From: Lutraria lutraria
Lineage: Eukaryota; Mollusca; Bivalvia; Venerida; Mactridae
Direction of reading: 5' to 3'
Assembly (NCBI GenBank): GCA_964023205.1
Contig: OZ026835.1
Span: forward strand, 17,504,414 to 17,568,413
Length of the DNA: 64,000 nucleotides
This document shows positions 27,340 to 45,622 of this stretch, piece after piece. Each line of letters opens with the position of its first letter. The first letter of the stretch is position 1. Both the position numbers and the translations under genes were made by a program. A model generated the notes under the pieces. The model had not been told where the DNA came from. It searched no databases and saw nothing but the letters and a program-made list of their open reading frames with translations.

Positions 27340-27624
27340 ATATACTATGAAGATATGCTATGAATTGAAATGATGTACTTTGTATTCATAGATTCTTTTG
27401 AAAACTGCATGAAACCATTTATGGTGACCTTAGTAAAGACAGATACCAGTGCTTAATGTGATTTTGATGTGATAAACATTTAGACAGGTAAACATTGCTT
27501 TACAAGAACACTTTAGGATGCAAATATATTCAACCACTGTATTGCAGTATCATTATTTTTATATGGACATAAAATTCATCTGTGTAATCTTAAATCTTTA
27601 TTACCTTGTAAACACTTTGTTGTG
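27340..27624 (+). mobile_element. Copy 3 of the TIR transposon family, left part (split by the Polinton)
   Basis: Matches 14946-15210: ATGCTATGAATTGAAA, GATGTACTTTGTATTCA, TTAGTAAAGACAGATA, GTGCTTAATGTGATTTTGAT, GTGATAAACATTTAGA. It stops at the Polinton end and resumes at 42280. Copy 1 therefore serves as a paralogous empty site. Confidence 0.8.
27619..27624. repeat. Target site duplication, left (GTTGTG)
   Basis: Six bases identical to 42274-42279 and immediately outside the inverted ends. Six-bp duplications are typical of Polinton/Maverick integration. Confidence 0.9.
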
Positions 27625-27837
27625 AGTAGTATATGGCGATACCCTGGGTACTAATCAACGTAATTGGTACCCAGAAGTTTTCAAAATTGTGACAAATTAG
27701 GACAAATTGGAAATCAATGTTGTACCCCAAAATAGTATGAAATGGATTTTAGGAATGTTCTGGGTACTGTGTGTGTTTTGTTATTTGTACTGTATAGACT
27801 TAGACAATGAGAGAATTTTCTTTCGAAAAGACATGGT

Positions 27838-27875
27838 GGCCCTGAAAAGGGCCGTTGGTGGTCCTGAAAAGGACC
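27838..27875 (-). terminator. Tandem histone-type 3' stem-loops after the Cys-rich gene, left arm
   Basis: On the minus strand SL1 is 27875-27860 and SL2 is 27853-27838, mirror copies of 42023-42060. The plus strand shows GGCCCTGAAAAGGGCC and GGTCCTGAAAAGGACC. A purine block (CGAAAGAAAA) follows at 27825-27816. Described in full at 42023. Confidence 0.8.
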
Positions 27876-27887
27876 GTTGATGGTTTT

Positions 27888-28421
27888 TTAAACCGTGTTT
27901 GCTGACTGATCTGGTTGGGTACATAGTTCGCATTGGCAGTCTGGTGGGGGATAGCAGTGCCTGCATGTTAGATCCCCACAGGACCATTCCTGTTCTGGTA
28001 CTGGTGGTTGTTCCGTGTACTCAACTTGAGCGGTAGAGCGCCAATGCTCTTCTTCTTGTTGTTGTTCCCGTTGTCTATTCGCCGTTCGTTCCCGAGCATC
28101 TCGCTGCCTTTCTCTGACTTGATCTCGATATTGCTCTGGCATTTGAGATAATTCTTCTTTATGATGAAATCGATTGGTTTCAATGCAATTCATAGTCTCA
28201 CCAATGGTTTGAAGATCTCGTTCCCTTTTTCTAACAATGCTAGCCGCTAAGCGACTGATTGAACGCCATACCCTGCTCTGTTTTTCAGTCAGTTGTTTTG
28301 CTGTTTTGAGTTCATTGAATAAAGCCTCCATCTTGAGTGTTTGAGTTCTCAGAATGAAATGAGGCATTGTAAGACGGAGTATTGTATTACACCCCCCACT
28401 CTCGTGGTTGGATGACGTCAT
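27888..28421 (-). CDS. Cys-rich C-terminal protein, left-arm copy
   Basis: Encodes the same 177 residues as 41477-42010; see that entry for the description. Ends 12 nt before the tandem stem-loops at 27875-27838. Confidence 0.6.
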   Translation of the reverse strand: MTSSNHESGGCNTILRLTMPHFILRTQTLKMEALFNELKTAKQLTEKQSRVWRSISRLAASIVRKRERDLQTIGETMNCIETNRFHHKEELSQMPEQYRDQVRERQRDARERTANRQREQQQEEEHWRSTAQVEYTEQPPVPEQEWSCGDLTCRHCYPPPDCQCELCTQPDQSANTV

Positions 28422-28460
28422 ATTGCTTGGATGACGTCACCCTAGGATTGGATGGCGTCA
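28413..28460 (-). promoter_or_regulatory. Three CRE-like sites upstream of the Cys-rich gene, left arm
   Basis: Mirror of 41438-41485: TGACGTCA at 28413-28420 and 28432-28439, TGACGCCA (read on the minus strand) at 28453-28460. Each is followed by TCCAA or CATCCAA in gene sense. Confidence 0.5.
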
Positions 28461-28604
28461 CGCGCCGATGCATGTGCGGAGCTTGATTTTTATGAACTTA
28501 GAAAAAAGACAACAGACACCTAGTTTCAGTTTTTCTAAACTTTTTTGTAACAAGAAACAAGAAACTACATGAAACATTTTATGAAACAGTAACATTGTTT
28601 ACAT

Positions 28605-29135
28605 TTAATGATCACCATAAAGAGTTGTATTTCTATGTATGATACTATGATACAAACGTCTGTGACCTTCTGGTCTAGAGTTACGTTGAGCAAAACATTT
28701 TTGTCCACACTTGTTCACATATTGAGCATGCATGTAATAAGTACCATAATATTGTTGAAACCAATGCGTCACATAAGTGTCATTTTTTCCATACATGTCC
28801 GGTTTGAATCGGGTTAACAGTATCTGGTTCAAGTCACATTCACGTGAGATAAAATCCAAAGCGAATAGACAATACACACCACACACCGGTAACATATCGC
28901 CTTGTATTCTCATGGCATTCCACAGATAAGTTTTGTTGGCATGTTTTTTCACAAAGGATAGAATCTCTTCGAAAGGTGGTAATCCGTAGGAATCAAAGTA
29001 CACTGCTTTATTGTCTTTTAAATAAAGAGCCACCCAGTGTTCTCCAGGTTGATTCCCGTTATGGGTATTCACAATATAGGCTTTCACGTCATGCGGTTTC
29101 TCTGAAGGTAATTGATCTTTAGCACAAACACGCAA
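28605..29135 (-). CDS. Adenain-like cysteine protease, left-arm copy (5' end missing)
   Basis: Identical in translation to 40763-41293, described there. As on the right, the frame opens at a TTG directly after a stop codon and a 38-bp array abuts the start. Confidence 0.8.
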   Translation of the reverse strand: MRVCAKDQLPSEKPHDVKAYIVNTHNGNQPGEHWVALYLKDNKAVYFDSYGLPPFEEILSFVKKHANKTYLWNAMRIQGDMLPVCGVYCLFALDFISRECDLNQILLTRFKPDMYGKNDTYVTHWFQQYYGTYYMHAQYVNKCGQKCFAQRNSRPEGHRRLYHSIIHRNTTLYGDH

Positions 29136-29145
29136 TTAGCAATTA

Positions 29146-29393
29146 GCGCAATTTGAACACTGTACACTTAATATATACTATCACAGCAATTTGAACACTG
29201 TACACTTAATATATACTATCACAGCAATTTGAACACTGTACACTTAATATATACTATCACAGCAATTTGAACACTGTACACTTAATATATACTATCACAG
29301 CAATTTGAACACTGTACACTTAATATATACTATCACAGCAATTTGAATACTGTATACTTAATATATACTATCACAGCAATTTGAATACTGTAT
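29146..29393. repeat. 38-bp tandem array, left arm
   Basis: Six to seven copies of a 38-bp unit (GCAATTTGAACACTGTACAC, then TTAATATATACTATCACA). Mirror of 40505-40752. Each unit contains a TATATTAA-like word in protease-gene sense. Confidence 0.9.
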
Positions 29394-29562
29394 ACATTTG
29401 TTGAAAATGATTGTACACATCATACTATCACAGCACTTTGTAGGAAATGTTTATAGAAAACTTACCTCACACCGTCTATTTGTATTTGGTGTTATCAGAT
29501 AGGAATGTAAATATACTAGTAATATTGACAATATGAGAGTGATTCTTTCTGAATTGTATGGG

Positions 29563-29600
29563 GGCCCTGAAAAGGGCCGTTGGTGGTCCTGAAAAGGACC
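29563..29600 (-). terminator. Tandem histone-type 3' stem-loops after the coiled-coil gene, left arm
   Basis: Minus strand SL1 29600-29585 and SL2 29578-29563, mirror copies of 40298-40335. They lie 19 nt after the stop codon of the minus-strand ORF 29943-29620. Confidence 0.8.
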
Positions 29601-29619
29601 GTTGGTACTTGTATGGGGA

Positions 29620-29943
29620 TTAATGGCGTTGACCGCATCTCCCCATATAAGCAGGACACCACTTGTCCCATTTCTGGACATCCTTGGGGTCCGGTGTGGG
29701 TTGATAGAGGTTCGAAGGAACCTCCGTGAGTTCATCTTCCCAGTTCTCTGGGGTTGATTCTTGAGGGGTATCCCCCCAGTCCTCTTCCCCAGAGCAGACC
29801 TCCACCTCCTCTGCGAACTTCTTCCCCTCTCTCAGGGTCTTCACCTCCAACCGCAGCTCTTCTAGCTGCATTTCCAGCTGTTCAATATACAACCCTAAGG
29901 TTGTATACTTTCTCTTAATAATGTTAAGCGTACGTTGAGACAT
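29620..29943 (-). CDS. Coiled-coil acidic protein, left-arm copy
   Basis: Identical in translation to 39955-40278, described there. Upstream (30008-30085) is the mirrored CCAAT repeat; downstream are the tandem stem-loops. Confidence 0.6.
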   Translation of the reverse strand: MSQRTLNIIKRKYTTLGLYIEQLEMQLEELRLEVKTLREGKKFAEEVEVCSGEEDWGDTPQESTPENWEDELTEVPSNLYQPTPDPKDVQKWDKWCPAYMGRCGQRH

Positions 29944-30007
29944 CTCGATACAGAATGAAACTAGATCAAGGTAAGGCCACTCACTGACTATGATACAAGG
30001 ACTCTGA

Positions 30008-30085
30008 TTTGTCCATTTTAACAGTATTTCATTGGTCCATTTTAACAGTATTTCATTGGTCTATTTTAACGGCATTTCATTGGTC
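30008..30085 (-). promoter_or_regulatory. Triple CCAAT-box repeat, left arm
   Basis: Three ATTGG words on the plus strand (CCAAT in gene sense), 24 bp apart, plus a degenerate fourth unit. Mirror of 39813-39890. Confidence 0.55.
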
Positions 30086-30162
30086 TGTTGTTTTCTAGGT
30101 CAGTTAGTGTTTTTTTTCATGTTCCATAGCTCATTTATGTTTCATGATTCAACATGGTCGAC

Positions 30163-31735
30163 ATTGTCATGATTTGATATTAGTATATACAGTCAGTGTC
30201 ATGATTTGATAAAAGTATAGACAATTAGTGTCATGATTTAATATTAGTATAGTCAGTCAGTGTCATGATATGATAAAGGCATATACAGTCAGTGTCATGA
30301 TTTGATATAGGCATAGAAAGTCAGTGTCATGATATGATAAAAGTATAGACAGTCAGTGTCATGATTTGATATTAGTGTAGACAGTCAGTGTCATGATTTG
30401 ATATAGGTATAGACACTCAGTGTCATGATATGATATAGGTATCGACAGTCAGTGTCAAGATTTGATATTAGTATAGACAGTCAATGTCATGATTTGATAA
30501 AAGTATAGACAGTCAGTGTCATGATTTGATATAGGTATAGACACTCAGTGTCATGATATGATATAGGTATCGACAGTCAGTGTCAAGATTTGATATTAGT
30601 ATAGACAGTCAATGTCATGATTTGATATTAGTATATACATTGTTATGATTTAATATAAGTAGATACAGTCAGTGTCATGATTTGATAAAAGTACAGACAG
30701 TCAGTGTCATGATTTGATATGGTATAGACAGTCAGTGTCATGATATGATATAGCTATCGACAGTCAGTGTCAAGATTTGATATTAGTATAGACAGTCAAT
30801 GTCATGATTTGATGTTAGTATAGACATTGTTATGATTTAATATAAGTAGATACAGTCAGTGTCATGATTTGATATTAGTGTAGACAGTCAGTGTCATGAT
30901 TTGATATGGTATAGACAGTCAGTGTCATGATATGATATAGGTATCGACAGTCAGTGTCAAGATTTGATATTAGTATAGACAGTCAATGTCATGATTTGAT
31001 ATTCGTATATACATTGTTATGATTTAATATAAGTAGATACAGTCAGTGTCATGATTTGATAAAAGTACAGACAGTCAGTGTCATGATTTGATATGGGCAT
31101 TGACAGTCAGTGTCATAATTTGATAAAGGTATAGACAGTCAGTTTCATGATATGATATAGGTATAGACAGTCAGTGTCATGATATGATATATGTATAGAC
31201 AGTCAGTTTCATGATATGATACAGGTATAGACAGTCAGTGGCATGATATGATATATGTATAGACAGTCAGTGTCATGATTTGATGTTGGTATAGACAGTC
31301 AGAGTCTTGATTTAATTTGAGTATATACAGTCAGTGTCATGATTTGATATCAGTATAGATAGTCAGTGTCATGATATGATAAAATTATAGAGAGTCAGTG
31401 TCATGATATGATATAGGTATAGACAGTCAGTGTCATGATTTGATATAAGTATAGACAGTCAGTGTCATGATATGATATGGTTATATACAGTCAGTGTCAT
31501 GATTTGATATTAGTATAGACAGTCAGTGCCATGATTTGAAAAAAGTATAGACAGTCAGTGTCATGATATGATATGGTATAGACAGTCAGTGTCATGATTT
31601 GATGTTATTATAGACATTCAGTGTCATGATTTGATATTGGTATAGACAGTCAGTGTTATGATATGATAAAAGTATAGACAAAAGTATAGACAGTCAGTGT
31701 CATGATTTGATTTAAGTATATACGGTCAGCAAGGT
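30163..31735. repeat. 32-bp tandem array, left arm
   Basis: About 50 imperfect copies of a unit near GACAGTCAGTGTCATGATTT followed by GATATTAGTATA. Mirror of 38163-39735 with the same length. Confidence 0.93.
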
Positions 31736-31775
31736 TTTATTTGTTCCAACACTTCAAGATTGTGTTAAATTCATG

Positions 31776-32187
31776 GTTATATTGTATAACTATTATATTA
31801 TATCACTGTTATATTGTATCACTGTTATACTGTATTACTGTTATATTGTATAACTATTATATTATATCACTGTTATATTGTATCACTATTATATTGTATC
31901 ACTGTTAAACTGTATTACTGTTATATTGTATCACTGTTAAACTGTATTACTGTTATATTGTATCATTGTTATATTGTATCATTGTTATATTGTATCACTG
32001 TTATATTGTATCACTGTTATATTGTATAACTGTTATATTGTATCATTGTTATATTGTATAACTATTATATTGTATCACTGTTATATTGTATCACTGTTAT
32101 ATTGTATCACTGTTATATTGTATCACTGTTATATTGTATAACTATTATATTGTATCACTGTTATATTGTATCACTGTTATACTTTGT
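31776..32187. repeat. 16-bp tandem array, left arm (short allele)
   Basis: About 26 copies of TTATATTGTATCACTG and variants. The corresponding array on the right (35968-38122) is about 1.74 kb longer. The long open frames here come from the period and are not genes. Confidence 0.95.
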
Positions 32188-32763
32188 AGAAAAATGTTAC
32201 ACATCACACAATCACATTATACATCACACTTTATACATGATTGAAAAAAATGTGACAGTCTCTTAAGGTTTTTGAAGTCTATTACGAAGTGTTAAGGATC
32301 GTATTCTAAATACTGTCAGAAATTCATAGTAAATTGATTTTCGTTAATTAACCATATATAAATTCCAATAAACTAGACCCAAAAAAATGGAATAAATATT
32401 TCCTTCCATATTACTGTATAAATTCATGTTATTAATAGGAAACATTACCTAAAAACTAAAAAAAGAGAAAAAAGTATGGTCCCAGTGGGGTTTGAACCCA
32501 TGATCCTAAGGAATATGTCAATATGTCAGTAAAATTCATGAAATTGAGTATTCTTCAAAAAGGAGGTTTCGAATTAGAGATTGAAATCCTTAACTCTTTG
32601 TATTATAAGTAGCAAACGTACACTTACCCCATAATATCTACGCACTAGCACATTAAGTTTATAAATGACGTCATGATTTGACGTCATCAGATAGGTATGT
32701 AAATATAGTATTATGATACTGACAATGTGAGAGTGATTTATTTATTTTTTGGAATGGTATGTT

Positions 32764-32779
32764 GGCCCTTATTTGAGCC
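32764..32779 (-). terminator. Degenerate stem-loop, left-arm copy
   Basis: Mirror of 35375-35390, described there. Confidence 0.4.
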
Positions 32780-32861
32780 ACCATGTGTTAGATTCGTTTT
32801 GTTTCTGAATCAAAGACAAAAGCATATTACATTGTATATCATTTATTTATATATAATTTCT

Positions 32862-33053
32862 TTAACTTAGTTTAAATAAGAAAGTACAAATAACAAAGTA
32901 CAGTATGACAATAAAAGCATTCATTGTTGAAGGGTTCCGTACAAACCGTAGAATTCCACAACGAAAACATTCTATATGATCCCAAATATGCTTTCGAAAC
33001 ACAAACTCTTCTTTTGTGAATTTCTCACATACTTCACAAACCAAGCCACACTG
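32862..33053 (-). pseudogene. C2H2 zinc-finger fragment, left-arm copy
   Basis: Mirror of 35101-35292, described there. Confidence 0.45.
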
Positions 33054-33213
33054 CTAGGTGCAGGAATCCGAATTCTATGGGAGTATTATTGTCCAGGGCA
33101 GAAATGGAATAATGCTCAGTCCATTGACCCTCTTGCATGGCTGTCATGGTAGGTGGCACAACAAACACATCCAACTCTGTCTTACTACATTCGCAGGAAC
33201 CGTGTTGCATCAT
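33034..33213 (-). pseudogene. Major capsid N-terminal fragment, left-arm copy
   Basis: Mirror of 34941-35120, described there. The left arm continues about 29 bp beyond this start into duplicated 3' sequence of the core-like gene and ends at 33242. Confidence 0.55.
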
Positions 33214-33361
33214 GATTAATCGAAAATATCAAGAGGTCTGGCTTAGCTATGTTTGTTCTTAACCGATGAACGTGTCTGTTCCTTATACATCGTGTCCGAA
33301 ATATGTTGCGTCCGAATACTATGCATGTTTCAGAAGAGAGCTTAACTATGAAATTTAATCA

Positions 33362-33472
33362 ATGCTCGCATATCGCCAGAGAAAGGTAGACGGAAGACGA
33401 GAAATTAAAGTGCATTGGAAAGGCTATCCTTCGAAATTTGACAGTTGGATTCCCGAATCCCATCTCGTTTGA
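33362..33472 (+). pseudogene. Integrase C-terminal chromodomain stump
   Basis: A 36-codon frame ending IKVHWKGYPSKFDSWIPES. This is the C-terminal half of a chromodomain (W-K-G-Y...W-I-P), as found at the end of Polinton integrases. A stop codon lies two codons upstream of the ATG, and nothing upstream resembles the zinc-binding or DDE catalytic domain. It is the 3' stump of a truncated integrase gene, 120 bp inside the unique centre. The next frame starts 20 nt later, showing the original close packing. Confidence 0.75.
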
Positions 33473-33491
33473 ACTGGTTAATAAATACATC

Positions 33492-33737
33492 ATGTCTCAA
33501 GCTGATACGGCCAGTGTGGAAGTGACTGCCTCAGAGCAAGCCAAATTGTGTGAACCTAAAAATAAGGTCGCTTTTTTGTCACAAATTGTAGTGGTATTTA
33601 TTATCATTACCGTATCGCTATTTAATTTGTGTTTTCAACGACCCGATCGGGAATTGTGGCTTCTGCTTTTAAGTAGTTCTTTAGGTTATATTCTACCGAA
33701 TCGCTCCTTGAAATTCAATAAACCTAAATCAACATGA
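33492..33737 (+). CDS. Small two-helix membrane protein of the Polinton core
   Basis: 81 aa from the ATG at 33492, chosen because it follows the integrase stop (33472); an in-frame ATG at 33438 would overlap the integrase. Residues about 28-47 (FLSQIVVVFIIITVSLFNLCF) form a hydrophobic helix. A second segment (ELWLLLLSSSLGYILPN) follows a short charged turn. Small proteins with a LLSSSLGYILP-like ending recur next to capsid genes in Polinton-type elements; that recognition is from memory. Function unknown; a virion or assembly membrane role is possible. The TGA stop overlaps the next ATG (ATGA, 33734-33737). Confidence 0.65.
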   Translation: MSQADTASVEVTASEQAKLCEPKNKVAFLSQIVVVFIIITVSLFNLCFQRPDRELWLLLLSSSLGYILPNRSLKFNKPKST

Positions 33738-34576
33738 GTTCGTTTTACATAACACTCATGAGTGATAGCTCTATGGATTTATTCCCAGACAATACGCAAT
33801 GTTGTTTTCGTACCAAACTGGCAAAACCCATCCATCTCAATAAACAAGACTGGGAAATTGCCTTAGTGGAAATGATTGTTCCTAGTCAGGTGATCAATGT
33901 CACTGAAGAAGAGCGACATTTCTGCATTGTTACACACGATCCTGTCCTGGCTAAGACCTTTGAATCCTTAATTTCCTATTGTACTCTCCCCAATAAAGAA
34001 GAAAAGGGTGTACGACTTTGTATTCCTGTAGGAACTTATGTCACACCACAACATTTGATCGAGACGATTGACTTTACCATTAAAGATAATCTGGGTAAAA
34101 TGTTTAAACAGAAAAATCTTCGATTTACCTTAGGTTTCTCGAGACAAAGTAAACGCGTGAAAATGGACAGTTCAGATAGTCTAGGCATTCAGTTTCATCC
34201 TCACATGTTTATTAAACTGGGTGGAGCTCCTGATAGTTCTCCTACCATCTTTTTAAAAGACACTCCGGAGCCGTTTCCTCATGGCGTAGATATTAACATG
34301 GGTCATAATCATTTGTTTGTTTATTCTGACCTCGCGGCTTATACCTATTTGGGAAACATAGAAGCCCCCATCTTACGTGTAGCTCCATTTGATCCGAGAA
34401 CGAAAGCAGGAACTAACCCCCATATTCATTTCGAGTTCTTGAATTTACACTATGTACCACTGGCTAAAACCGACTTTAACACCATCACTATCCATATAAG
34501 GGGTGACACTGGCCAGTCTATTCAGTTTATTCATGGGAAGTCTATGGTGAAACTACACCTACGCCAAAGACAATGA
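33734..34576 (+). CDS. Probable minor capsid (penton-like) protein
   Basis: 280 aa, single open frame with no introns. The N-terminus (FYITLMSDSSMDLFPDNTQ, then FRTKLAKPIHLNKQDWEIAL) resembles a family common in Polinton/Maverick elements of invertebrates: short beta-strand-rich start, a DxFPxNT motif, then a W-E-I/V-A-L strand. Its length and place between the membrane protein and the core/major-capsid genes fit the single-jelly-roll minor capsid protein. It lies only in the unique centre, so it is single-copy, unlike the arm genes. The frame is intact. It overlaps both neighbours by ATGA (33734-33737 and 34573-34576). The exact capsid role is an inference; a structure prediction would settle it. 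Confidence 0.6.
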   Translation: MSSFYITLMSDSSMDLFPDNTQCCFRTKLAKPIHLNKQDWEIALVEMIVPSQVINVTEEERHFCIVTHDPVLAKTFESLISYCTLPNKEEKGVRLCIPVGTYVTPQHLIETIDFTIKDNLGKMFKQKNLRFTLGFSRQSKRVKMDSSDSLGIQFHPHMFIKLGGAPDSSPTIFLKDTPEPFPHGVDINMGHNHLFVYSDLAAYTYLGNIEAPILRVAPFDPRTKAGTNPHIHFEFLNLHYVPLAKTDFNTITIHIRGDTGQSIQFIHGKSMVKLHLRQRQ

Positions 34577-34938
34577 TACCTACTTACCAAGGTCAACCTC
34601 GACAATATGGACACGGACTTGGATCCATGTTTAAGAAAGCCATGAAAAGAATCATGCCTTTACTGAGTCCATTGGTGAAATCTGGAGTTCACACCTTGAA
34701 AAAAGAAGGACTCCAGCAAGGAAGAGCCGCTATGCAAGATATCTTGACAGGATCAAACGCTAAAAAAGTAATACGAAAACGTGGAGCCTCTGTATTAAAA
34801 GATGTGGGTGAATCCTTGTTACGTGCCGTGGCCAGCCCTAAAAGACGTATAAATAGCAAACCAGTCAAGAAAAGACCTCATTCGAAACTTCATCGTCGCC
34901 GAGTTAAGCAGGCCAGACCTCTTGATATTTTCGATTAA
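34573..34938 (+). CDS. Basic core-like / capsid-associated protein
   Basis: 121 aa, strongly basic. The N-terminus has QYGHGLGSMFKKAMKRI then MPLLSPLVKSG, a Gly-rich amphipathic start. The C-terminal third is Lys/Arg-rich (KRRINSKPVKKRPHSK, LHRRRVKQARP) and suited to binding DNA. Proteins of this shape sit beside the capsid genes of Polintons and adenovirus-like elements and are thought to be virion core or membrane-active proteins. Its final 9 codons fall inside the right arm (from 34912), so that end is duplicated at 33242-33216. The stop at 34936-34938 is followed two bases later by the major-capsid ATG. Confidence 0.6.
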   Translation: MIPTYQGQPRQYGHGLGSMFKKAMKRIMPLLSPLVKSGVHTLKKEGLQQGRAAMQDILTGSNAKKVIRKRGASVLKDVGESLLRAVASPKRRINSKPVKKRPHSKLHRRRVKQARPLDIFD

Positions 34939-34940
34939 TC

Positions 34941-35120
34941 ATGATGCAACACGGTTCCTGCGAATGTAGTAAGACAGAGTTGGATGTGTTTGTTGTGCCA
35001 CCTACCATGACAGCCATGCAAGAGGGTCAATGGACTGAGCATTATTCCATTTCTGCCCTGGACAATAATACTCCCATAGAATTCGGATTCCTGCACCTAG
35101 CAGTGTGGCTTGGTTTGTGA
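34941..35120 (+). pseudogene. Major capsid protein, N-terminal fragment
   Basis: A 59-codon frame whose first ~50 residues match the start of Polinton double-jelly-roll major capsid proteins: SCECSKTELDVFVVPPTMT, then a GQW-E motif and NNTPIEFG. A full gene would be several hundred codons. Here the match stops near 35090 and the frame reads into unrelated sequence and a stop. The C2H2 fragment begins at about 35101, so a deletion joined the two. The break is the same in both arms, so it predates or accompanies the palindrome. Placed 2 nt after the core-like gene, as in a compact capsid cluster. Confidence 0.6.
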
Positions 35121-35292
35121 AGTATGTGAGAAATTCACAAAAGAAGAGTTTGTGTTTCGAAAGCATATTTGGGATCATATAGAATGTTTTCGTTGTGGAA
35201 TTCTACGGTTTGTACGGAACCCTTCAACAATGAATGCTTTTATTGTCATACTGTACTTTGTTATTTGTACTTTCTTATTTAAACTAAGTTAA
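35101..35292 (+). pseudogene. C2H2 zinc-finger fragment
   Basis: Open from just after a stop (35098-35100), with no ATG. It reads CGLVCEVCEKFTKEEFVFRK then HIWDH, a Cys-x2-Cys-x12-His-x3-His finger. A second Cys pair (CFRC) and a hydrophobic end (AFIVILYFVICTFLF) follow. Probably the 3' remnant of a gene joined to the capsid stump by deletion; the source gene is not recognised. AATAAA occurs at about 35305. Confidence 0.45.
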
Positions 35293-35374
35293 AGAAATTA
35301 TATATAAATAAATGATATACAATGTAATATGCTTTTGTCTTTGATTCAGAAACAAAACGAATCTAACACATGGT

Positions 35375-35390
35375 GGCTCAAATAAGGGCC
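35375..35390 (+). terminator. Degenerate histone-like stem-loop
   Basis: GGCTCAAATAAGGGCC: a 5-bp stem with one G-T pair and loop AAATAA instead of the TTTC core. The flanking sequence downstream (AATCACTCTCACATTGTCAG, then ACATACCTATCTGATGACGT) aligns with the region after the intact stem-loops at 40298-40335. AATAAA words follow at about 35407. Read as a decayed paralogue of the same 3' module. Confidence 0.45.
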
Positions 35391-35467
35391 AACATACCAT
35401 TCCAAAAAATAAATAAATCACTCTCACATTGTCAGTATCATAATACTATATTTACATACCTATCTGA

Positions 35468-35488
35468 TGACGTCAAATCATGACGTCA
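35468..35488. promoter_or_regulatory. Pair of CRE palindromes (TGACGTCA), right arm
   Basis: Two perfect TGACGTCA sites (35468-35475, 35481-35488) separated by AATCA; mirror copies at 32666-32686. These are consensus CREB/ATF sites. Which gene they would serve is unclear. Confidence 0.4.
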
Positions 35489-35967
35489 TTTATAAACTTA
35501 ATGTGCTAGTGCGTAGATATTATGGGGTAAGTGTACGTTTGCTACTTATAATACAAAGAGTTAAGGATTTCAATCTCTAATTCGAAACCTCCATTTTGAA
35601 GAATACTCAATTTCATGAATTTTACTGACATATTGACATATTCCTTAGGATCATGGGTTCAAACCCCACTGGGACCATACTTTTTTCTCTTTTTTTAGTT
35701 TTTAGGTAATGTTTCCTATTAATAACATGAATTTATACAGTAATATGGAAGGAAATATTTATTCCATTTTTTTGGGTCTAGTTTATTGGAATTTATATAT
35801 GGTTAATTAACGAAAATCAATTTACTATGAATTTCTGACAGTATTTAGAATACGATCCTTAACACTTCGTAATAGACTTCAAAAACCTTAAGAGACTGTC
35901 ACATTTTTTTCAATCATGTATAAAGTGTGATGTATAATGTGATTGTGTGATGTGTAACATTTTTCTA

Positions 35968-38122
35968 CAAAGTATAACAGTGATACAATATAACAGTGAT
36001 ACAATATAATAGTTATACAATATAACAGTGATACAATATAACAGTGATACAATATAACAGTGATACAATATAACAGTGATACAATATAATAGTTATACAA
36101 TATAACAATGATACAATATAACAGTTATACAATATAACAGTGATACAATATAACAGTGATACAATATAACAATGATACAATATAACAATGATACAATATA
36201 ACAGTAATACAGTTTAACAGTGATACAATATAATAGTGATACAATATAACAGTGATATAATATAATAGTTATACAATATAACAGTGATACAATATAATAG
36301 TTATACAATATAACAATGATACAATATAACAGTTATACAATATAACAGTAATACAATATAACAGTGATACAATATAACAGTAATACAATATAACAGTGAT
36401 ACAATATAACAGTGATACAATATAACAGTGATACAATATAACAGTGATACAATATAATAGTTATACAATATAACAATGATACAATATAACAGTTATACAA
36501 TATAACAGTAATACAATATAACAGTGATACAATATAACAGTGATACAATATAACAGTAATACAGTTTAACAGTGATACAATATAACAGTGATACAATATA
36601 ACAGTGATACAATATAACAGTGATACAATATAACAGTGATACAATATAACAGTAATACAGTTTAACAGTGATACAATATAATAGTGATACAGTTTAACAG
36701 TGATACAATATAACAGTGATACAATATAACAGTGATACAATATAACAGTAATACAGTTTAACAGTGATACAATATAACAGTAATACAGTTTAACAGTGAT
36801 ACAATATAACAGTGATACAATATAACAGTGATACAATATAACAGTGATACAATATAACAGTGATACAATATAACAGTGATACAATATAACAGTAATACAG
36901 TTTAACAGTGATACAATATAATAGTGATACAATATAACAGTGATATAATATAATAGTTATACAATATAACAGTTATACAATATAACAGTAATACAATATA
37001 ACAGTGATACAATATAACAGTAATACAATATAACAGTGATACAATATAACAGTGATACAATATAACAGTGATACAATATAACAGTGATACAATATAATAG
37101 TTATACAATATAACAATGATACAATATAACAGTTATACAATATAACAGTAATACAATATAACAGTGATACAATATAACAGTAATACAATATAACAGTGAT
37201 ACAATATAACAGTGATACAATATAACAGTGATACAATATAACAATGATACAATATAACAGTGATACAATATAACAGTGATACAATATAATAGTTATACAA
37301 TATAACAGTGATACAATATAACAGTGATACAATATAACAGTGATACAATATAACAGTGATACAATATAACAGTAATACAGTTTAACAGTGATACAATATA
37401 ACAGTGATACAATATAACAGTGATACAATATAACAGTGATACAATATAACAGTGATACAATATAACAGTAATACAGTTTAACAGTGATACAATATAATAG
37501 TGATACAGTTTAACAGTGATACAATATAACAGTGATACAATATAACAGTGATACAATATAACAGTAATACAGTTTAACAGTGATACAATATAACAGTAAT
37601 ACAGTTTAACAGTGATACAATATAACAGTGATACAATATAACAGTGATACAATATAACAGTGATACAATATAACAGTGATACAATATAACAGTGATACAA
37701 TATAACAGTAATACAGTTTAACAGTGATACAATATAATAGTGATACAATATAACAGTGATATAATATAATAGTTATACAATATAACAGTAATACAGTATA
37801 ACAGTGATACAATATAACAGTGATACAATATAACAGTGATACAATATAACAGTAATACAGTTTAACAGTGATACAATATAACAGTAATACAGTTTAACAG
37901 TGATACAATATAACAGTGATACAATATAACAGTGATACAATATAACAGTGATACAATATAACAGTGATACAATATAACAGTAATACAGTTTAACAGTGAT
38001 ACAATATAATAGTGATACAATATAACAGTGATATAATATAATAGTTATACAATATAACAGTAATACAGTATAACAGTGATACAATATAACAGTGATATAA
38101 TATAATAGTTATACAATATAAC
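35968..38122. repeat. 16-bp tandem array, right arm (expanded)
   Basis: About 134 copies of CAGTGATACAATATAA and variants (CAGTTTAA, TAATAC). Higher-order blocks of several hundred bp recur (for example around 36600-36900 and 37400-37700), so growth involved duplication of long segments. The long YCITVILYHCYIV-type frames on the minus strand come from the period. Confidence 0.95.
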
Positions 38123-38162
38123 CATGAATTTAACACAATCTTGAAGTGTTGGAACAAATAAA

Positions 38163-39735
38163 ACCTTGCTGACCGTATATACTTAAATCAAATCATGACA
38201 CTGACTGTCTATACTTTTGTCTATACTTTTATCATATCATAACACTGACTGTCTATACCAATATCAAATCATGACACTGAATGTCTATAATAACATCAAA
38301 TCATGACACTGACTGTCTATACCATATCATATCATGACACTGACTGTCTATACTTTTTTCAAATCATGGCACTGACTGTCTATACTAATATCAAATCATG
38401 ACACTGACTGTATATAACCATATCATATCATGACACTGACTGTCTATACTTATATCAAATCATGACACTGACTGTCTATACCTATATCATATCATGACAC
38501 TGACTCTCTATAATTTTATCATATCATGACACTGACTATCTATACTGATATCAAATCATGACACTGACTGTATATACTCAAATTAAATCAAGACTCTGAC
38601 TGTCTATACCAACATCAAATCATGACACTGACTGTCTATACATATATCATATCATGCCACTGACTGTCTATACCTGTATCATATCATGAAACTGACTGTC
38701 TATACATATATCATATCATGACACTGACTGTCTATACCTATATCATATCATGAAACTGACTGTCTATACCTTTATCAAATTATGACACTGACTGTCAATG
38801 CCCATATCAAATCATGACACTGACTGTCTGTACTTTTATCAAATCATGACACTGACTGTATCTACTTATATTAAATCATAACAATGTATATACGAATATC
38901 AAATCATGACATTGACTGTCTATACTAATATCAAATCTTGACACTGACTGTCGATACCTATATCATATCATGACACTGACTGTCTATACCATATCAAATC
39001 ATGACACTGACTGTCTACACTAATATCAAATCATGACACTGACTGTATCTACTTATATTAAATCATAACAATGTCTATACTAACATCAAATCATGACATT
39101 GACTGTCTATACTAATATCAAATCTTGACACTGACTGTCGATAGCTATATCATATCATGACACTGACTGTCTATACCATATCAAATCATGACACTGACTG
39201 TCTGTACTTTTATCAAATCATGACACTGACTGTATCTACTTATATTAAATCATAACAATGTATATACTAATATCAAATCATGACATTGACTGTCTATACT
39301 AATATCAAATCTTGACACTGACTGTCGATACCTATATCATATCATGACACTGAGTGTCTATACCTATATCAAATCATGACACTGACTGTCTATACTTTTA
39401 TCAAATCATGACATTGACTGTCTATACTAATATCAAATCTTGACACTGACTGTCGATACCTATATCATATCATGACACTGAGTGTCTATACCTATATCAA
39501 ATCATGACACTGACTGTCTACACTAATATCAAATCATGACACTGACTGTCTATACTTTTATCATATCATGACACTGACTTTCTATGCCTATATCAAATCA
39601 TGACACTGACTGTATATGCCTTTATCATATCATGACACTGACTGACTATACTAATATTAAATCATGACACTAATTGTCTATACTTTTATCAAATCATGAC
39701 ACTGACTGTATATACTAATATCAAATCATGACAAT
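38163..39735. repeat. 32-bp tandem array, right arm
   Basis: About 50 imperfect copies of the complement of the unit at 30163-31735. Length equals that of the left array, so only the 16-bp array changed size between arms. Confidence 0.93.
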
Positions 39736-39812
39736 GTCGACCATGTTGAATCATGAAACATAAATGAGCTATGGAACATGAAAAAAAACACTAACTGACC
39801 TAGAAAACAACA

Positions 39813-39890
39813 GACCAATGAAATGCCGTTAAAATAGACCAATGAAATACTGTTAAAATGGACCAATGAAATACTGTTAAAATGGACAAA
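39813..39890 (+). promoter_or_regulatory. Triple CCAAT-box repeat upstream of the coiled-coil gene
   Basis: Three 24-bp units (GACCAATGAAATACTGTTAA-like) place CCAAT at 39815-39819, 39839-39843 and 39863-39867; a fourth unit has GACAAAT. The array ends about 65 bp before the ATG at 39955 and no TATA box is seen between. Phased CCAAT boxes are common in histone and other S-phase promoters. Confidence 0.55.
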
Positions 39891-39954
39891 TCAGAGTCCT
39901 TGTATCATAGTCAGTGAGTGGCCTTACCTTGATCTAGTTTCATTCTGTATCGAG

Positions 39955-40278
39955 ATGTCTCAACGTACGCTTAACATTATTAAGAGAAAGTATACAACCT
40001 TAGGGTTGTATATTGAACAGCTGGAAATGCAGCTAGAAGAGCTGCGGTTGGAGGTGAAGACCCTGAGAGAGGGGAAGAAGTTCGCAGAGGAGGTGGAGGT
40101 CTGCTCTGGGGAAGAGGACTGGGGGGATACCCCTCAAGAATCAACCCCAGAGAACTGGGAAGATGAACTCACGGAGGTTCCTTCGAACCTCTATCAACCC
40201 ACACCGGACCCCAAGGATGTCCAGAAATGGGACAAGTGGTGTCCTGCTTATATGGGGAGATGCGGTCAACGCCATTAA
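39955..40278 (+). CDS. Coiled-coil acidic protein of the Polinton arm, right copy
   Basis: 107 aa. Residues about 1-45 (basic start, then LEMQLEELRLEVKTLREGKK) are predicted coiled coil with leucines at heptad-like spacing. The middle is strongly acidic (EEVEVCSGEEDW...ENWEDELTEVP). The C-terminus has WDKWCPAYMGRCG. I do not recognise the family. The codon and base content is GC-richer than the surroundings. The single ATG is preceded by the CCAAT repeat. The stop is followed after 19 nt by two histone-type stem-loops. Conserved identically in both arms, which argues for a real gene. A small regulatory or scaffold protein is possible; no function assigned. Confidence 0.6.
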   Translation: MSQRTLNIIKRKYTTLGLYIEQLEMQLEELRLEVKTLREGKKFAEEVEVCSGEEDWGDTPQESTPENWEDELTEVPSNLYQPTPDPKDVQKWDKWCPAYMGRCGQRH

Positions 40279-40297
40279 TCCCCATACAAGTACCAAC

Positions 40298-40335
40298 GGT
40301 CCTTTTCAGGACCACCAACGGCCCTTTTCAGGGCC
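40298..40335 (+). terminator. Tandem histone-type 3' stem-loops after the coiled-coil gene
   Basis: SL1 40298-40313 is GGTCCTTTTCAGGACC and SL2 40320-40335 is GGCCCTTTTCAGGGCC. Both have the 6-bp stem, 4-nt TTTC loop, GG start and CC end of the replication-dependent histone mRNA stem-loop (GGYYCUUUUCARRRCC). SL1 and SL2 differ by a compensating base-pair swap (T-A for C-G). The 5' flank is CCAAC and the spacer is ACCAAC, like histone flanks. CAGAAAGAA at 40347-40355, 11 nt past SL2, resembles a U7-binding downstream element. No AATAAA lies between stop and element. Same orientation as the gene. Confidence 0.82.
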
Positions 40336-40504
40336 CCCATACAATTCAGAAAGAATCACTCTCATATTGTCAATATTACTAGTATATTTACATTCCTATC
40401 TGATAACACCAAATACAAATAGACGGTGTGAGGTAAGTTTTCTATAAACATTTCCTACAAAGTGCTGTGATAGTATGATGTGTACAATCATTTTCAACAA
40501 ATGT

Positions 40505-40752
40505 ATACAGTATTCAAATTGCTGTGATAGTATATATTAAGTATACAGTATTCAAATTGCTGTGATAGTATATATTAAGTGTACAGTGTTCAAATTGCTG
40601 TGATAGTATATATTAAGTGTACAGTGTTCAAATTGCTGTGATAGTATATATTAAGTGTACAGTGTTCAAATTGCTGTGATAGTATATATTAAGTGTACAG
40701 TGTTCAAATTGCTGTGATAGTATATATTAAGTGTACAGTGTTCAAATTGCGC
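40505..40752. repeat. 38-bp tandem array abutting the protease frame, right arm
   Basis: Copies of GCTGTGATAGTATATATTAA plus GTGTACAGTGTTCAAATT. The last unit ends directly at the point where the protease frame opens, so the array appears to have replaced the gene's original 5' end. Each unit has TATATATTAA, a possible TATA box. Confidence 0.9.
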
Positions 40753-40762
40753 TAATTGCTAA

Positions 40763-41293
40763 TTGCGTGTTTGTGCTAAAGATCAATTACCTTCAGAGAA
40801 ACCGCATGACGTGAAAGCCTATATTGTGAATACCCATAACGGGAATCAACCTGGAGAACACTGGGTGGCTCTTTATTTAAAAGACAATAAAGCAGTGTAC
40901 TTTGATTCCTACGGATTACCACCTTTCGAAGAGATTCTATCCTTTGTGAAAAAACATGCCAACAAAACTTATCTGTGGAATGCCATGAGAATACAAGGCG
41001 ATATGTTACCGGTGTGTGGTGTGTATTGTCTATTCGCTTTGGATTTTATCTCACGTGAATGTGACTTGAACCAGATACTGTTAACCCGATTCAAACCGGA
41101 CATGTATGGAAAAAATGACACTTATGTGACGCATTGGTTTCAACAATATTATGGTACTTATTACATGCATGCTCAATATGTGAACAAGTGTGGACAAAAA
41201 TGTTTTGCTCAACGTAACTCTAGACCAGAAGGTCACAGACGTTTGTATCATAGTATCATACATAGAAATACAACTCTTTATGGTGATCATTAA
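40763..41293 (+). CDS. Adenain-like cysteine protease (Polinton PRO), 5' end missing
   Basis: 176 codons. The family matures capsid proteins in adenoviruses and Polintons. All active-site positions are present, numbered from the frame start: His33 (GEHWVALYL), Asp48 (VYFDSYGLPPF), Gln78 and Cys85 (QGDMLPVCGVYCLFALDF). The Gln-to-Cys spacing of 7 equals that of adenain. The frame opens with TTG directly after a TAA and has no usable ATG before residue 75. The usual N-terminal segment before the D-x-LP motif is cut short; the 38-bp array abuts it. Either the gene is 5'-truncated or it uses an upstream spliced exon. The 3' side has no stem-loop and no clear AATAAA. Both arms have the same defect. 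Confidence 0.85.
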   Translation: MRVCAKDQLPSEKPHDVKAYIVNTHNGNQPGEHWVALYLKDNKAVYFDSYGLPPFEEILSFVKKHANKTYLWNAMRIQGDMLPVCGVYCLFALDFISRECDLNQILLTRFKPDMYGKNDTYVTHWFQQYYGTYYMHAQYVNKCGQKCFAQRNSRPEGHRRLYHSIIHRNTTLYGDH

Positions 41294-41437
41294 ATGTAAA
41301 CAATGTTACTGTTTCATAAAATGTTTCATGTAGTTTCTTGTTTCTTGTTACAAAAAAGTTTAGAAAAACTGAAACTAGGTGTCTGTTGTCTTTTTTCTAA
41401 GTTCATAAAAATCAAGCTCCGCACATGCATCGGCGCG

Positions 41438-41485
41438 TGACGCCATCCAATCCTAGGGTGACGTCATCCAAGCAATATGACGTCA
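41438..41485 (+). promoter_or_regulatory. Three CRE-like sites upstream of the Cys-rich gene
   Basis: TGACGCCATCCAA (41438), TGACGTCATCCAA (41459) and TGACGTCATCCAA (41478): a 13-bp motif repeated at 19-21 bp spacing. TGACGTCA is the CREB/ATF consensus. The most upstream ATG of the following ORF (41477) lies inside the third motif, which argues that translation starts later (41531 or 41567). Confidence 0.5.
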
Positions 41486-42010
41486 TCCAACCACGAGAGT
41501 GGGGGGTGTAATACAATACTCCGTCTTACAATGCCTCATTTCATTCTGAGAACTCAAACACTCAAGATGGAGGCTTTATTCAATGAACTCAAAACAGCAA
41601 AACAACTGACTGAAAAACAGAGCAGGGTATGGCGTTCAATCAGTCGCTTAGCGGCTAGCATTGTTAGAAAAAGGGAACGAGATCTTCAAACCATTGGTGA
41701 GACTATGAATTGCATTGAAACCAATCGATTTCATCATAAAGAAGAATTATCTCAAATGCCAGAGCAATATCGAGATCAAGTCAGAGAAAGGCAGCGAGAT
41801 GCTCGGGAACGAACGGCGAATAGACAACGGGAACAACAACAAGAAGAAGAGCATTGGCGCTCTACCGCTCAAGTTGAGTACACGGAACAACCACCAGTAC
41901 CAGAACAGGAATGGTCCTGTGGGGATCTAACATGCAGGCACTGCTATCCCCCACCAGACTGCCAATGCGAACTATGTACCCAACCAGATCAGTCAGCAAA
42001 CACGGTTTAA
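41477..42010 (+). CDS. Cys-rich C-terminal protein of the Polinton arm, right copy
   Basis: Longest frame 177 aa. More likely starts are Met19 (41531, MPHFILRTQTLK) or Met31 (41567, MEALFNELKTAK), because the first ATG lies in a promoter-like repeat. The middle (about 45-130) is charged and helical, rich in Arg, Glu and Gln (RERQRDARERTANRQREQQQ), a likely long coiled coil. The C-terminus has six cysteines within 20 residues (CGDLTCRHCYPPPDCQCELC), a probable metal-binding knuckle. Not recognised as a named family; could be a nucleic-acid-binding regulator. The stop is followed after 12 nt by tandem histone-type stem-loops. Identical in both arms. Confidence 0.6.
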   Translation: MTSSNHESGGCNTILRLTMPHFILRTQTLKMEALFNELKTAKQLTEKQSRVWRSISRLAASIVRKRERDLQTIGETMNCIETNRFHHKEELSQMPEQYRDQVRERQRDARERTANRQREQQQEEEHWRSTAQVEYTEQPPVPEQEWSCGDLTCRHCYPPPDCQCELCTQPDQSANTV

Positions 42011-42022
42011 AAAACCATCAAC

Positions 42023-42060
42023 GGTCCTTTTCAGGACCACCAACGGCCCTTTTCAGGGCC
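42023..42060 (+). terminator. Tandem histone-type 3' stem-loops after the Cys-rich gene
   Basis: SL1 42023-42038 GGTCCTTTTCAGGACC, spacer ACCAAC, SL2 42045-42060 GGCCCTTTTCAGGGCC followed by ACCA. SL2 matches the metazoan histone consensus at every position. The 5' flank is ATCAAC, the 3' flank ACCA, and a purine block CGAAAGAAAA lies at 42073-42082, 12 nt downstream, where the U7 snRNP-binding element is expected. No AATAAA is seen downstream in the element. SL sequences and spacer are identical to those at 40298-40335 although the surrounding DNA differs, implying selection or recent copying. Confidence 0.82.
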
Positions 42061-42273
42061 ACCATGTCTTTTCGAAAGAAAATTCTCTCATTGTCTAAGT
42101 CTATACAGTACAAATAACAAAACACACACAGTACCCAGAACATTCCTAAAATCCATTTCATACTATTTTGGGGTACAACATTGATTTCCAATTTGTCCTA
42201 ATTTGTCACAATTTTGAAAACTTCTGGGTACCAATTACGTTGATTAGTACCCAGGGTATCGCCATATACTACT

Positions 42274-42279
42274 GTTGTG
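42274..42279. repeat. Target site duplication, right (GTTGTG)
   Basis: Identical to 27619-27624; directly follows the terminal ...ACT of the element. Confidence 0.9.
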
Positions 42280-43079: not shown

Positions 43080-45622
43080 ATGTTATCTGTAGCACATGAT
43101 GTTATCTGCATTACATGATGTTATCTGTATTATATGATGTTATCTGTATTATATGATGTTATCTGTATTATATGATGTCATCTGTATTACATGATGTTAT
43201 CTGTATTATATGATGTTATCTGCATTACATGATGTTATCTGTATTATATGATGTTATCTGTATTATATGATGTCATCTGTATTACATGATGTTATCTGTA
43301 TTACATGATGTTATCTGCATTACATGATGTCATCTGTATTACATGATGTTATCTGTATTATATGATGTTATCTGCATTACATGATGTTATCTGTATTATA
43401 TGATGTTATCTGTATTATATGATGTCATCTGTATTACATGATGTTATCTGTATTATATGATGTTATCTGCATTACATGATGTTATCTGTATTATATGATG
43501 TTATCTGTATTATATGATGTTATCTGTATTATATGATGTCATCTGTATTACATGATGTTATCTGTATTATATGATGTTATCTGCATTACATGATGTTATC
43601 TGTATTATATGATGTTATCTGTATTATATGATGTCATCTGTATTACATGATGTTATCTGTATTACATGATGTTATCTGCATTACATGATGTTATCTGTAT
43701 TACATGATGTTATCTGTATTATATGATGTTATCTGTATTACATGATGTTATCTGTATTATATGATGTCATCTGTATTACATGATGTTATCTGTATTATAT
43801 GATGCTATCTGTATTACATGATGTTATCTGTATTACATGATGTTATCTGTATTATATGATGTTATCTGTATTACATGATGTTATCTGTATTATATGATGT
43901 CATCTGTATTACATGATGTCATCTGTATTACATGATGTTATCTGTATTACATGATGTCATCTGTATTATATGATGTTATCTGTATTACATGATGTTTTCT
44001 GTATTATATGATGTTATCTGTATTATATGATGTTATCTGTATTATATGATGTTATCTGTATTATATGATGTTATCTGTATTATATGATGTTATCTGTATT
44101 ATATGATGTTATCTGTATTACATGATGTTATCTGTATTATATGATGTCATCTGTATTACATGATGTCATCTGTATTATATGATGTTATCTGTATTACATG
44201 ATGTTTTCTGTATTATATGATGTTATCTGTATTACATGATGTTATCTGTATTACATGATGTTTTCTGTATTATATGATGTTATCTGTATTACATGATGTT
44301 ATCTGTATTATATGATGTTATCTGTATTACATGATGTCATCTGTATTATATGATGTTATCTGTATTACATGATGTCATCTGTATTATATGATGTTATCTG
44401 TATTACATGATGTTATCTGTATTATATGATGTTATCTGTATTACATGATGTTATCTGTATTATATGATGTCATCTGTATTACATGATGTCATCTGTATTA
44501 CATGATGTTATCTGTATTACATGATGTCATCTGTATTATATGATGTTATCTGTATTACATGATGTTTTCTGTATTATATGATGTTATCTGTATTATATGA
44601 TGTTATCTGTATTATATGATGTTATCTGTATTATATGATGTTATCTGTATTATATGATGTTATCTGTATTATATGATGTTATCTGTATTACATGATGTTA
44701 TCTGTATTACATGATGTTATCTGTATTATATGATGTTATCTGTATTATATGATGTTATCTGTATTACATGATGTTATCTGTATTATATGATGTTATCTGT
44801 ATTACATGATGTTATCTGTATTACATGATGTTATCTGTATTATATGATGTTATCTGTATTATATGATGTTATCTGTATCATATGATGTTATCTGCATTAC
44901 ATGATGCTATCTGTATTATATGATGTTATCTGTATTACATGATGTCATCTGTATTATATGATGTTATCTGTATTACATGATGTTATCTGTATTACATGAT
45001 GTTATCTGTATTATATGATGTTTTCTGTATTACATGATGTTATCTGTATTACATGATGTTATCTGTATTATATGATGTTATCTGTATTATATGATGTTAT
45101 CTGTATTATATGATATTATCTGTATTATATGATGTTATCTGTATTACATGATGTTATCTGTATTACATGATGTTATCTGTATTACATGATGTTATCTGTA
45201 TTATATGATGTTATCTGTATTATATGATGTTATCTGTATTACATGATGTTATCTGTATTATATGATGTTATCTGTATTACATGATGTTATCTGTATTACA
45301 TGATGTTATCTGTATTATATGATGTTATCTGTATTATATGATGTTATCTGTATTATATGATGTTATCTGCATTACATGATGCTATCTGTATTACATGATG
45401 TTATCTGTATTATATGATGTTATCTGTATTATATGATGTTTTCTGTATTATATGATGTCATCTGTATTATATGATGTTATCTGTATTACATGATGTTTTC
45501 TGTATTATATGATGTTATCTGTATTATATGATGTCATCTGTATTATATGATGTTATCTGTATTATATGATGTTATCTGTATTACATGATGTTTTCTGTAT
45601 TATATGATGTTATCTGTATTAT
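43080..45622. repeat. 19-bp satellite array
   Basis: About 134 copies of ATGATGTTATCTGTATTAC with few variants (TTAC/TTAT, GTTATC/GTCATC/GTTTTC). Higher-order blocks recur. Unrelated in sequence to the Polinton arrays. No coding potential. Confidence 0.97.

Follow-up and report, generated by a model that had tools for sequence, protein, structure and literature searches.

Histone-type tandem stem-loops at the 3' ends of Polinton genes in the bivalve Lutraria lutraria

The Polinton copy present in a 64,000-nt stretch of the Lutraria lutraria genome (contig OZ026835.1, positions 17,504,414 to 17,568,413 of the forward strand; this whole stretch is referred to as the window) carries behind two of its genes, A and B, tandem stem-loops (SLs) of the type known from replication-dependent histone mRNAs. 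We consider it very likely that these hairpins, together with a purine block located downstream of them, represent a genuine histone-type 3'-processing signal, composed of the stem-loop and a histone downstream element (HDE), that would be used by the host stem-loop-binding protein (SLBP) and the U7 small nuclear ribonucleoprotein (snRNP) on a subset of the Polinton genes. The initial annotation had described a single array, the one behind gene B. That observation is correct, and the phenomenon is larger than had been proposed: the same element contains a second array and mirror copies, and further genes end in stem-loops in fuller copies of the element.

Stem-loop arrays of the window and of host histone genes

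The gene B array is positioned at 40298–40335 on the forward strand, with precisely the sequence and coordinates previously reported, and begins 19 nt past the stop of gene B (39955–40278, forward strand; TAA at 40276–40278), which encodes a protein of 107 amino acids with a coiled-coil/acidic look by eye. SL1 (GGTCCTTTTCAGGACC; 40298–40313) and SL2 (GGCCCTTTTCAGGGCC; 40320–40335) are separated by the spacer ACCAAC. Sequence inspection and folding confirmed the proposed architecture of a 6-bp stem and a 4-nt loop with histone-like flanks shortly past a stop codon; the folded 82-nt RNA stretch yielded two clean 6-bp/4-nt hairpins and a weak third one (z -4.0). The compensating change between SL1 and SL2 that preserves the stem was found at the third pair (T-A versus C-G). 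SL2 is followed by cccatacaattcaGAAAGAATcac, which includes a U7-type, HDE-like purine block (GAAAGAAT; 40349–40356, forward strand).

The element has another gene that ends in this fashion. Gene A (41531–42010, forward strand; open frame 41462–42010) encodes 159 amino acids when read from its first ATG and has a Cys-rich C-terminus; its array at 42023–42060 comprises SL1 (GGTCCTTTTCAGGACC; 42023–42038) and SL2 (GGCCCTTTTCAGGGCC; 42045–42060), and its U7-type purine block (GAAAGAAA) is located at 42074–42081, all on the forward strand. Because the element possesses inverted arms of 4.56 kb, both arrays recur on the minus strand, where RF00032 and a search pattern detected mirror copies of the gene A array (27838–27875) and of the gene B array (29563–29600).

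Scoring with the Rfam histone 3' stem-loop family RF00032, which the initial annotation had suggested as a check, gave a divided answer for the window when judged by the curated cut-off of 34 bits: the gene A array passes it (35.8 bits, on SL2), while the gene B array fails it (31.7 bits, on SL2; E 9.4e-6 in 18 kb). Gene B SL1 has no RF00032 entry of its own; the probable reason is the overlap that its match would have with the SL2 match. A score below threshold had been named in advance as speaking against a histone-type identity, and this holds for the gene B array; however, four of the five host histone genes that we read likewise score below 34 bits. The host histone cluster, the sequences of which have a lophotrochozoan look, contains 12 full H4 copies and one partial copy, and within one unit (locus L081) the values were 34.5 bits for H4, 33.8 for H3, 31.9 for H2A, 31.7 for H2B and 30.5 for H1. 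Since true members (H1, H2A, H2B, H3) thus score between 30.5 and 33.8 bits, the cut-off does not separate them here. The best loops of 11 element loci scored 33.9–36.4 bits, eight of them 34.7–36.4 (printed values for the others: 34 for L003 and L010, 33.9 for L024); L061, in which the GGTCC loop alone is left, reached 36.4 bits. Below the cut-off were the listed loops of a further element gene, D (31.0 bits), and one first loop (L012; 28 bits). By their RF00032 scores, the signals of the element are as histone-like as those of the host's own histone genes.

The likeness extends to the sequences themselves. Host H2A, H2B, H3 and H4 end in GGCCCTTTTTAGGGCC, from which SL2 of the element differs in the last loop base alone, and SL2 of locus L056 even has the host base. 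Host H1 ends in GGTCCTTTTCAGGACC (position 6220 of L081), which is identical to SL1 of the element. The purine block had been said to lie at the right distance for the U7 snRNP, and this was borne out: AAAG starts 14–16 nt past the last stem-loop in all 39 examined arrays of genes A, B and C (the latter introduced below). In host H2A, AAAG is found 14 nt past the loop (counted by eye), and in mouse H2a an AAAGAG core situated about 16 nt past the loop (a distance worked out from the construct sequence) pairs with U7 (PMC7026596).

The element family and conservation of the signal

Exact matches to GGYYCTTTTCAGRRCC number 2465 (1380 + 1085) in the 728.5-Mb host genome, compared with two (1 + 1) for the reversed control; division of 2465 by six suggests a copy number of about 400. 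The copies read besides that of the window come from 100 listed places out of the 2465, all of them on contig C1. By our own count they represent 17 elements with three arrays each, in which 99 of 102 expected loops were present, and the lone locus L007.

Across the fuller copies, four different genes (A, B, C and D) end in histone-type stem-loops. At one end of the element, gene A comes next after the protease; genes B and C (the latter a 294-aa frame), each succeeded by two loops, occupy the opposite end. The stem-loop of gene D was detected by RF00032 and not by the pattern; it is located on the opposite strand (31.0 bits). Gene D (729–956 of locus L010, minus strand, and homologues) encodes 75 amino acids beginning with MGNCLKSS, contains the internal repeat MGNLYPDL, and ends in the loop GGCCCTTATTAGGGCC with the same CCAAC/ACCA flanks as the other arrays; its start, MGNC, we take to be myristoylation-like. 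This loop and its 5-nt flanks are invariant in 17 of 17 copies, and 21 of 147 coding sites are variable.

Copies of genes A, B and C had been selected by the exact stem-loop pattern, which biases the apparent conservation of their loops upwards; neither the purine block nor the gene D loop was selected in this way. Full pairing (G-U allowed) in 76 of the 77 loops found must accordingly be read with the fact that the pattern already demands most of the loop; the loop that does not pair belongs to gene B, and one gene C array is single-looped. We aligned 11, 10 and 12 rows for genes A, B and C, respectively, after merging identical rows and dropping one unclassified array (L003 and L004). None of the 10 sites of the purine block varied in any of the three sets. 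The mean minor frequency amounted to 0.03–0.04 in the coding region upstream and to 0.08–0.16 in the 50 nt past the purine block; for the array with its flanks it was 0.019 in set A, 0.002 in set B and 0.066 in set C.

The diverged copy L007, carries a single loop scoring 36.3 bits. From AACGG to the end of the purine block it is identical to L018, a member of the main family, at 38 of 39 positions, as opposed to 192 of 225 (85%) in the coding region, 23 of 45 (51%) between stop and loop, and 75 of 122 (61%) in the next 140 columns. L007 itself had been selected by its loop and not by the purine block, and past the loop 19 of 20 positions are identical. The stem-loop and the purine block have thus been kept while both the coding sequence and the adjoining non-coding DNA diverged.

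The number, order and spacing of the loops differ among copies: we found swapped order (L024, 1501–1538), a 13-nt spacer (L012, 1501–1545) and single loops (L061, 667; L007, 1501), as if loops had been exchanged or lost.

A probable histone-type 3' end and its alternatives

The signals, their positions past stop codons, their likeness to host histone genes, their occurrence on genes A, B, C and D and the fact that a diverged copy has conserved them can be read from the sequence and point to the following course of events, which we infer. Host SLBP, which is to be expected because the host histone genes have the stem-loop, would bind one or both hairpins, the GAAAGAA block would be the pairing site of the host U7 snRNP, and cleavage by CPSF73 would follow a few nucleotides past SL2. 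The resulting mRNA would lack a poly(A) tail and have a double stem-loop as its terminus; its translation and stability would depend on abundant SLBP, as in S phase, in the germ line and in the early embryo. We regard a coupling of the element genes to S phase as fairly probable, though less so than the use of the signals by SLBP and U7. These features suggest that the element may borrow the host S-phase mRNA machinery in place of poly(A) tails for these genes.

One may extend this to two 3'-end programmes within one element, an idea towards which we lean: the accessory genes A to D would use the host histone pathway and be tied to S phase, with the tandem loops serving as a two-site handle for SLBP, and the other genes would have conventional ends. 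In the window copy, neither AATAAA nor ATTAAA is present between the stop of gene A and the end of the element, or between the stop of gene B and the protease open reading frame (ORF). In fuller copies, an AATAAA begins 9 nt past the stop of the integrase gene (locus L079), and another is found past the stop of a zinc-knuckle gene that is convergent to gene D. However, since several other core genes also have no clear poly(A) signal, the idea is only partly backed.

Several observations weigh against a histone-type 3' end. Each of the five host histone genes in L081 carries one loop and not two, and among them a U7-like block is seen in H2A and, less clearly, in H3 alone; H4, H2B and H1 are without it. 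Gene D has only a weak purine block, and the gene B array remains below the RF00032 cut-off. In set C the stem-loop array is no better conserved than the coding region (0.066 versus 0.035), with 37 of 48 sites variable in the array and its flanks, in part an alignment effect of the deletion in L061 and of the spacer insertion in L012. Beyond the host genome, relatives were seen as proteins only. Furthermore, a host U7 snRNA was not recovered: RF00066 gave no match (65 of 192,230 candidates were scored, and no control genome gave a signal), and the pattern TCTTTC-N2-16-AATTTNTCTAG gave 15 matches versus 13 in the control, with no U7-like 3' hairpin among them by eye. The sole strong hairpin among these pattern matches (L078; -19.4 kcal/mol) was not judged to be U7.

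The most serious rival, though in our estimate an improbable one, places the mRNA 3' end elsewhere: transcription would continue as far as a poly(A) site, and the stem-loops would attract SLBP either to act as a decoy or to aid translation. The tandem loops would suit multiple SLBP binding, and no U7 gene was found; but a purine block at U7 distance has been kept along with the loop, and in the window copy the stretches from gene A to the element end and from gene B to the next ORF contain neither AATAAA nor ATTAAA. Moreover, C. elegans histone mRNAs end past the hairpin despite poly(A) signals downstream of their genes (PMC1924863). Far less probable is a DNA-level element, a hairpin or protein-binding site in the terminal inverted repeats that would serve replication or integration and be histone-like by coincidence. 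The stems are palindromic, and genes A and C have arrays that are followed by shared sequence and situated close to the ends of the element; yet genes B and D carry their stem-loops internally, the loops stand in gene sense close past stop codons, their flanks (CCAAC...ACC) are strand-asymmetric, a purine block lies downstream, and the RF00032 scores are like those of real histone genes.

Two further explanations strike us as hardly credible. A hairpin polyadenylation signal of the virophage or giant-virus type, inherited from relatives of Polintons, would not be expected to have the histone consensus, flanks and downstream block that are found in host histone genes, and the core-gene pieces L079 and L080 gave no RF00032 match up to E 1. 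The initial annotation had itself raised a chance hairpin that was amplified by the copying of one element. Most copies do read much alike, the arrays of genes A and C share sequence, and that of gene B resembles both. This explanation is nevertheless disfavoured by gene D, which has its own loop and context, by the diverged copy L007, which keeps loop and block, and by the 2465 genome matches against two in the control. A histone-type 3' end, as initially proposed, hence remains the reading that we prefer, given RF00032 scores matched to those of host histones, the block at U7 distance, the four genes and the diverged copy.

The Polinton copy in the window and comparison with known systems

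The Polinton copy of the window measures 14.6 kb (27625–42273) and is bounded by inverted arms (27625–32183 and 37715–42273) of 4559 nt (4.56 kb) that are 99% complementary. It starts with AGTAGTATATGG, with which the arms begin, and ends with CCATATACTACT, and it is flanked by the target-site duplication GTTGTG (27619–27624 at left, 42274–42279 at right; by eye). Terminal inverted repeats starting with AG and a 6-bp target duplication, both present here, we take to be features of Polintons/Mavericks. Pieces of fuller copies contributed PolB (PF03175; 2.1e-38), an rve integrase (PF00665; 3.2e-12) with a chromodomain (PF00385; 1.3e-7), an A32-type ATPase (PF04665; 2.3e-8) and a zinc-knuckle protein (5.3e-8), so that the Polinton identity assigned earlier stands, together with the inverted arms and the 6-bp duplication. 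The window copy is largely palindromic: in addition to its arms it has an inner 1.47-kb inverted repeat (31776–33242 and 34912–36378), and it therefore contains two copies each of gene A, gene B and the protease ORF. Of PolB and integrase, we saw in it the integrase tail alone, a C-terminal chromodomain remnant (33380–33472, forward strand; recognised by eye through its match to the terminal part of the complete L079 integrase). It is thus a rearranged, non-autonomous Polinton.

The centre of the element holds this integrase tail, a penton-like gene and what we presume to be a core-like gene. The 280-aa gene at 33734–34576 (forward strand), which we take to be a penton-like capsid gene, has 31 protein homologues and no Pfam match; candidates for a double-jelly-roll capsid gene had no Pfam match either. 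The putative adenovirus-type protease ORF (40763–41293, forward strand) matched Peptidase_C5 weakly, under the cut-off, in the window (E 0.035) as in the pieces of fuller copies (0.063), and no RF00032 match was found at its 3' end. Pfam gave nothing above cut-off for the proteins of genes A, B and C; two protein relatives were found for gene A and two, at 85–86% identity, for gene B. In IMG/VR, pattern searches revealed no relative (at most two phage-like contigs, without RF00032 match), and a capsid alignment of 24 sequences gave 27 candidate stretches, none of which was confirmed. Locus L080 (1–786, minus strand) encodes a basic Polinton protein, which may be a core protein; its KSPAKRK/APARKPRK repeats resemble the tail of histone H1.

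Repeats accompany several of these genes. Upstream of gene B is a 24-bp repeat with GACCAAT, a CCAAT-type box (3.3 copies; 39812–39891); in L010 (1014–1098) GACCAAT boxes about 24 bp apart separate gene D from the divergently oriented gene B, an arrangement resembling a promoter common to both. Upstream of gene A (41438–41490), TGACGYCATCCAA is present three times, two of them with CRE-like TGACGTCA cores. A promoter link to the host histone genes was considered and rejected as too weak, with two CCAAT boxes for H2A, one for H2B and none for H4 and H1 in 330 nt; the start of H3 was not matched by the pattern. A 38-bp repeat (6.4 copies; 40506–40750) lies between the 3' end of gene B and the protease ORF. 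Outside the element, a 19-bp satellite of about 48 copies extends from 43080 to 44000, where the scanned stretch ended.

Outside replication-dependent histone genes, 3' ends of the histone type are held to be almost absent, and their use here would be, to our knowledge, the first by a mobile element or virus. A literature search of titles and the beginnings of abstracts, with subscription journals mostly outside its scope, retrieved no description of such ends in mobile elements or viruses, and nothing joining the histone stem-loop with Polintons. If our reading is true, a virus-like element, probably present in hundreds of copies, would show the histone pathway hijacked on four genes, and the effect of the stem-loop by itself could be studied in a natural setting. 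There would also be a reason why Polinton genes might follow S phase, and an explanation for the absence of these transcripts that is to be expected in poly(A)-selected RNA-seq.

With the 3' end of replication-dependent histone mRNAs (RF00032, SLBP, U7 snRNP) the element shares the 6-bp stem with its GG..CC base, the 4-nt U-rich loop, the CCAAC/ACC flanks, a purine block 14–16 nt downstream and host-like bit scores. It differs in that the genes are non-histone genes of a mobile element, in the tandem loops of nearly all arrays of genes A, B and C that were read, and in the loop itself, which is UUUC (UAUU in gene D) as compared with UUUU in the four host core histones. Among Polintons/Mavericks of the adintovirus type, it has the usual PolB, rve integrase with chromodomain, A32 ATPase, protease-like ORF, inverted repeats and 6-bp duplication, and stands apart through histone-type 3' ends on four accessory genes. 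The nearest parallel is the Sputnik virophage, whose genes carry the Mimivirus-type hairpin polyadenylation signal (PMC6723459). There too, a mobile double-stranded DNA element employs the 3'-end signal belonging to the machinery by which it is transcribed; in Sputnik this is the hairpin polyadenylation of the helper giant virus, whereas here the histone pathway of the animal host would serve.
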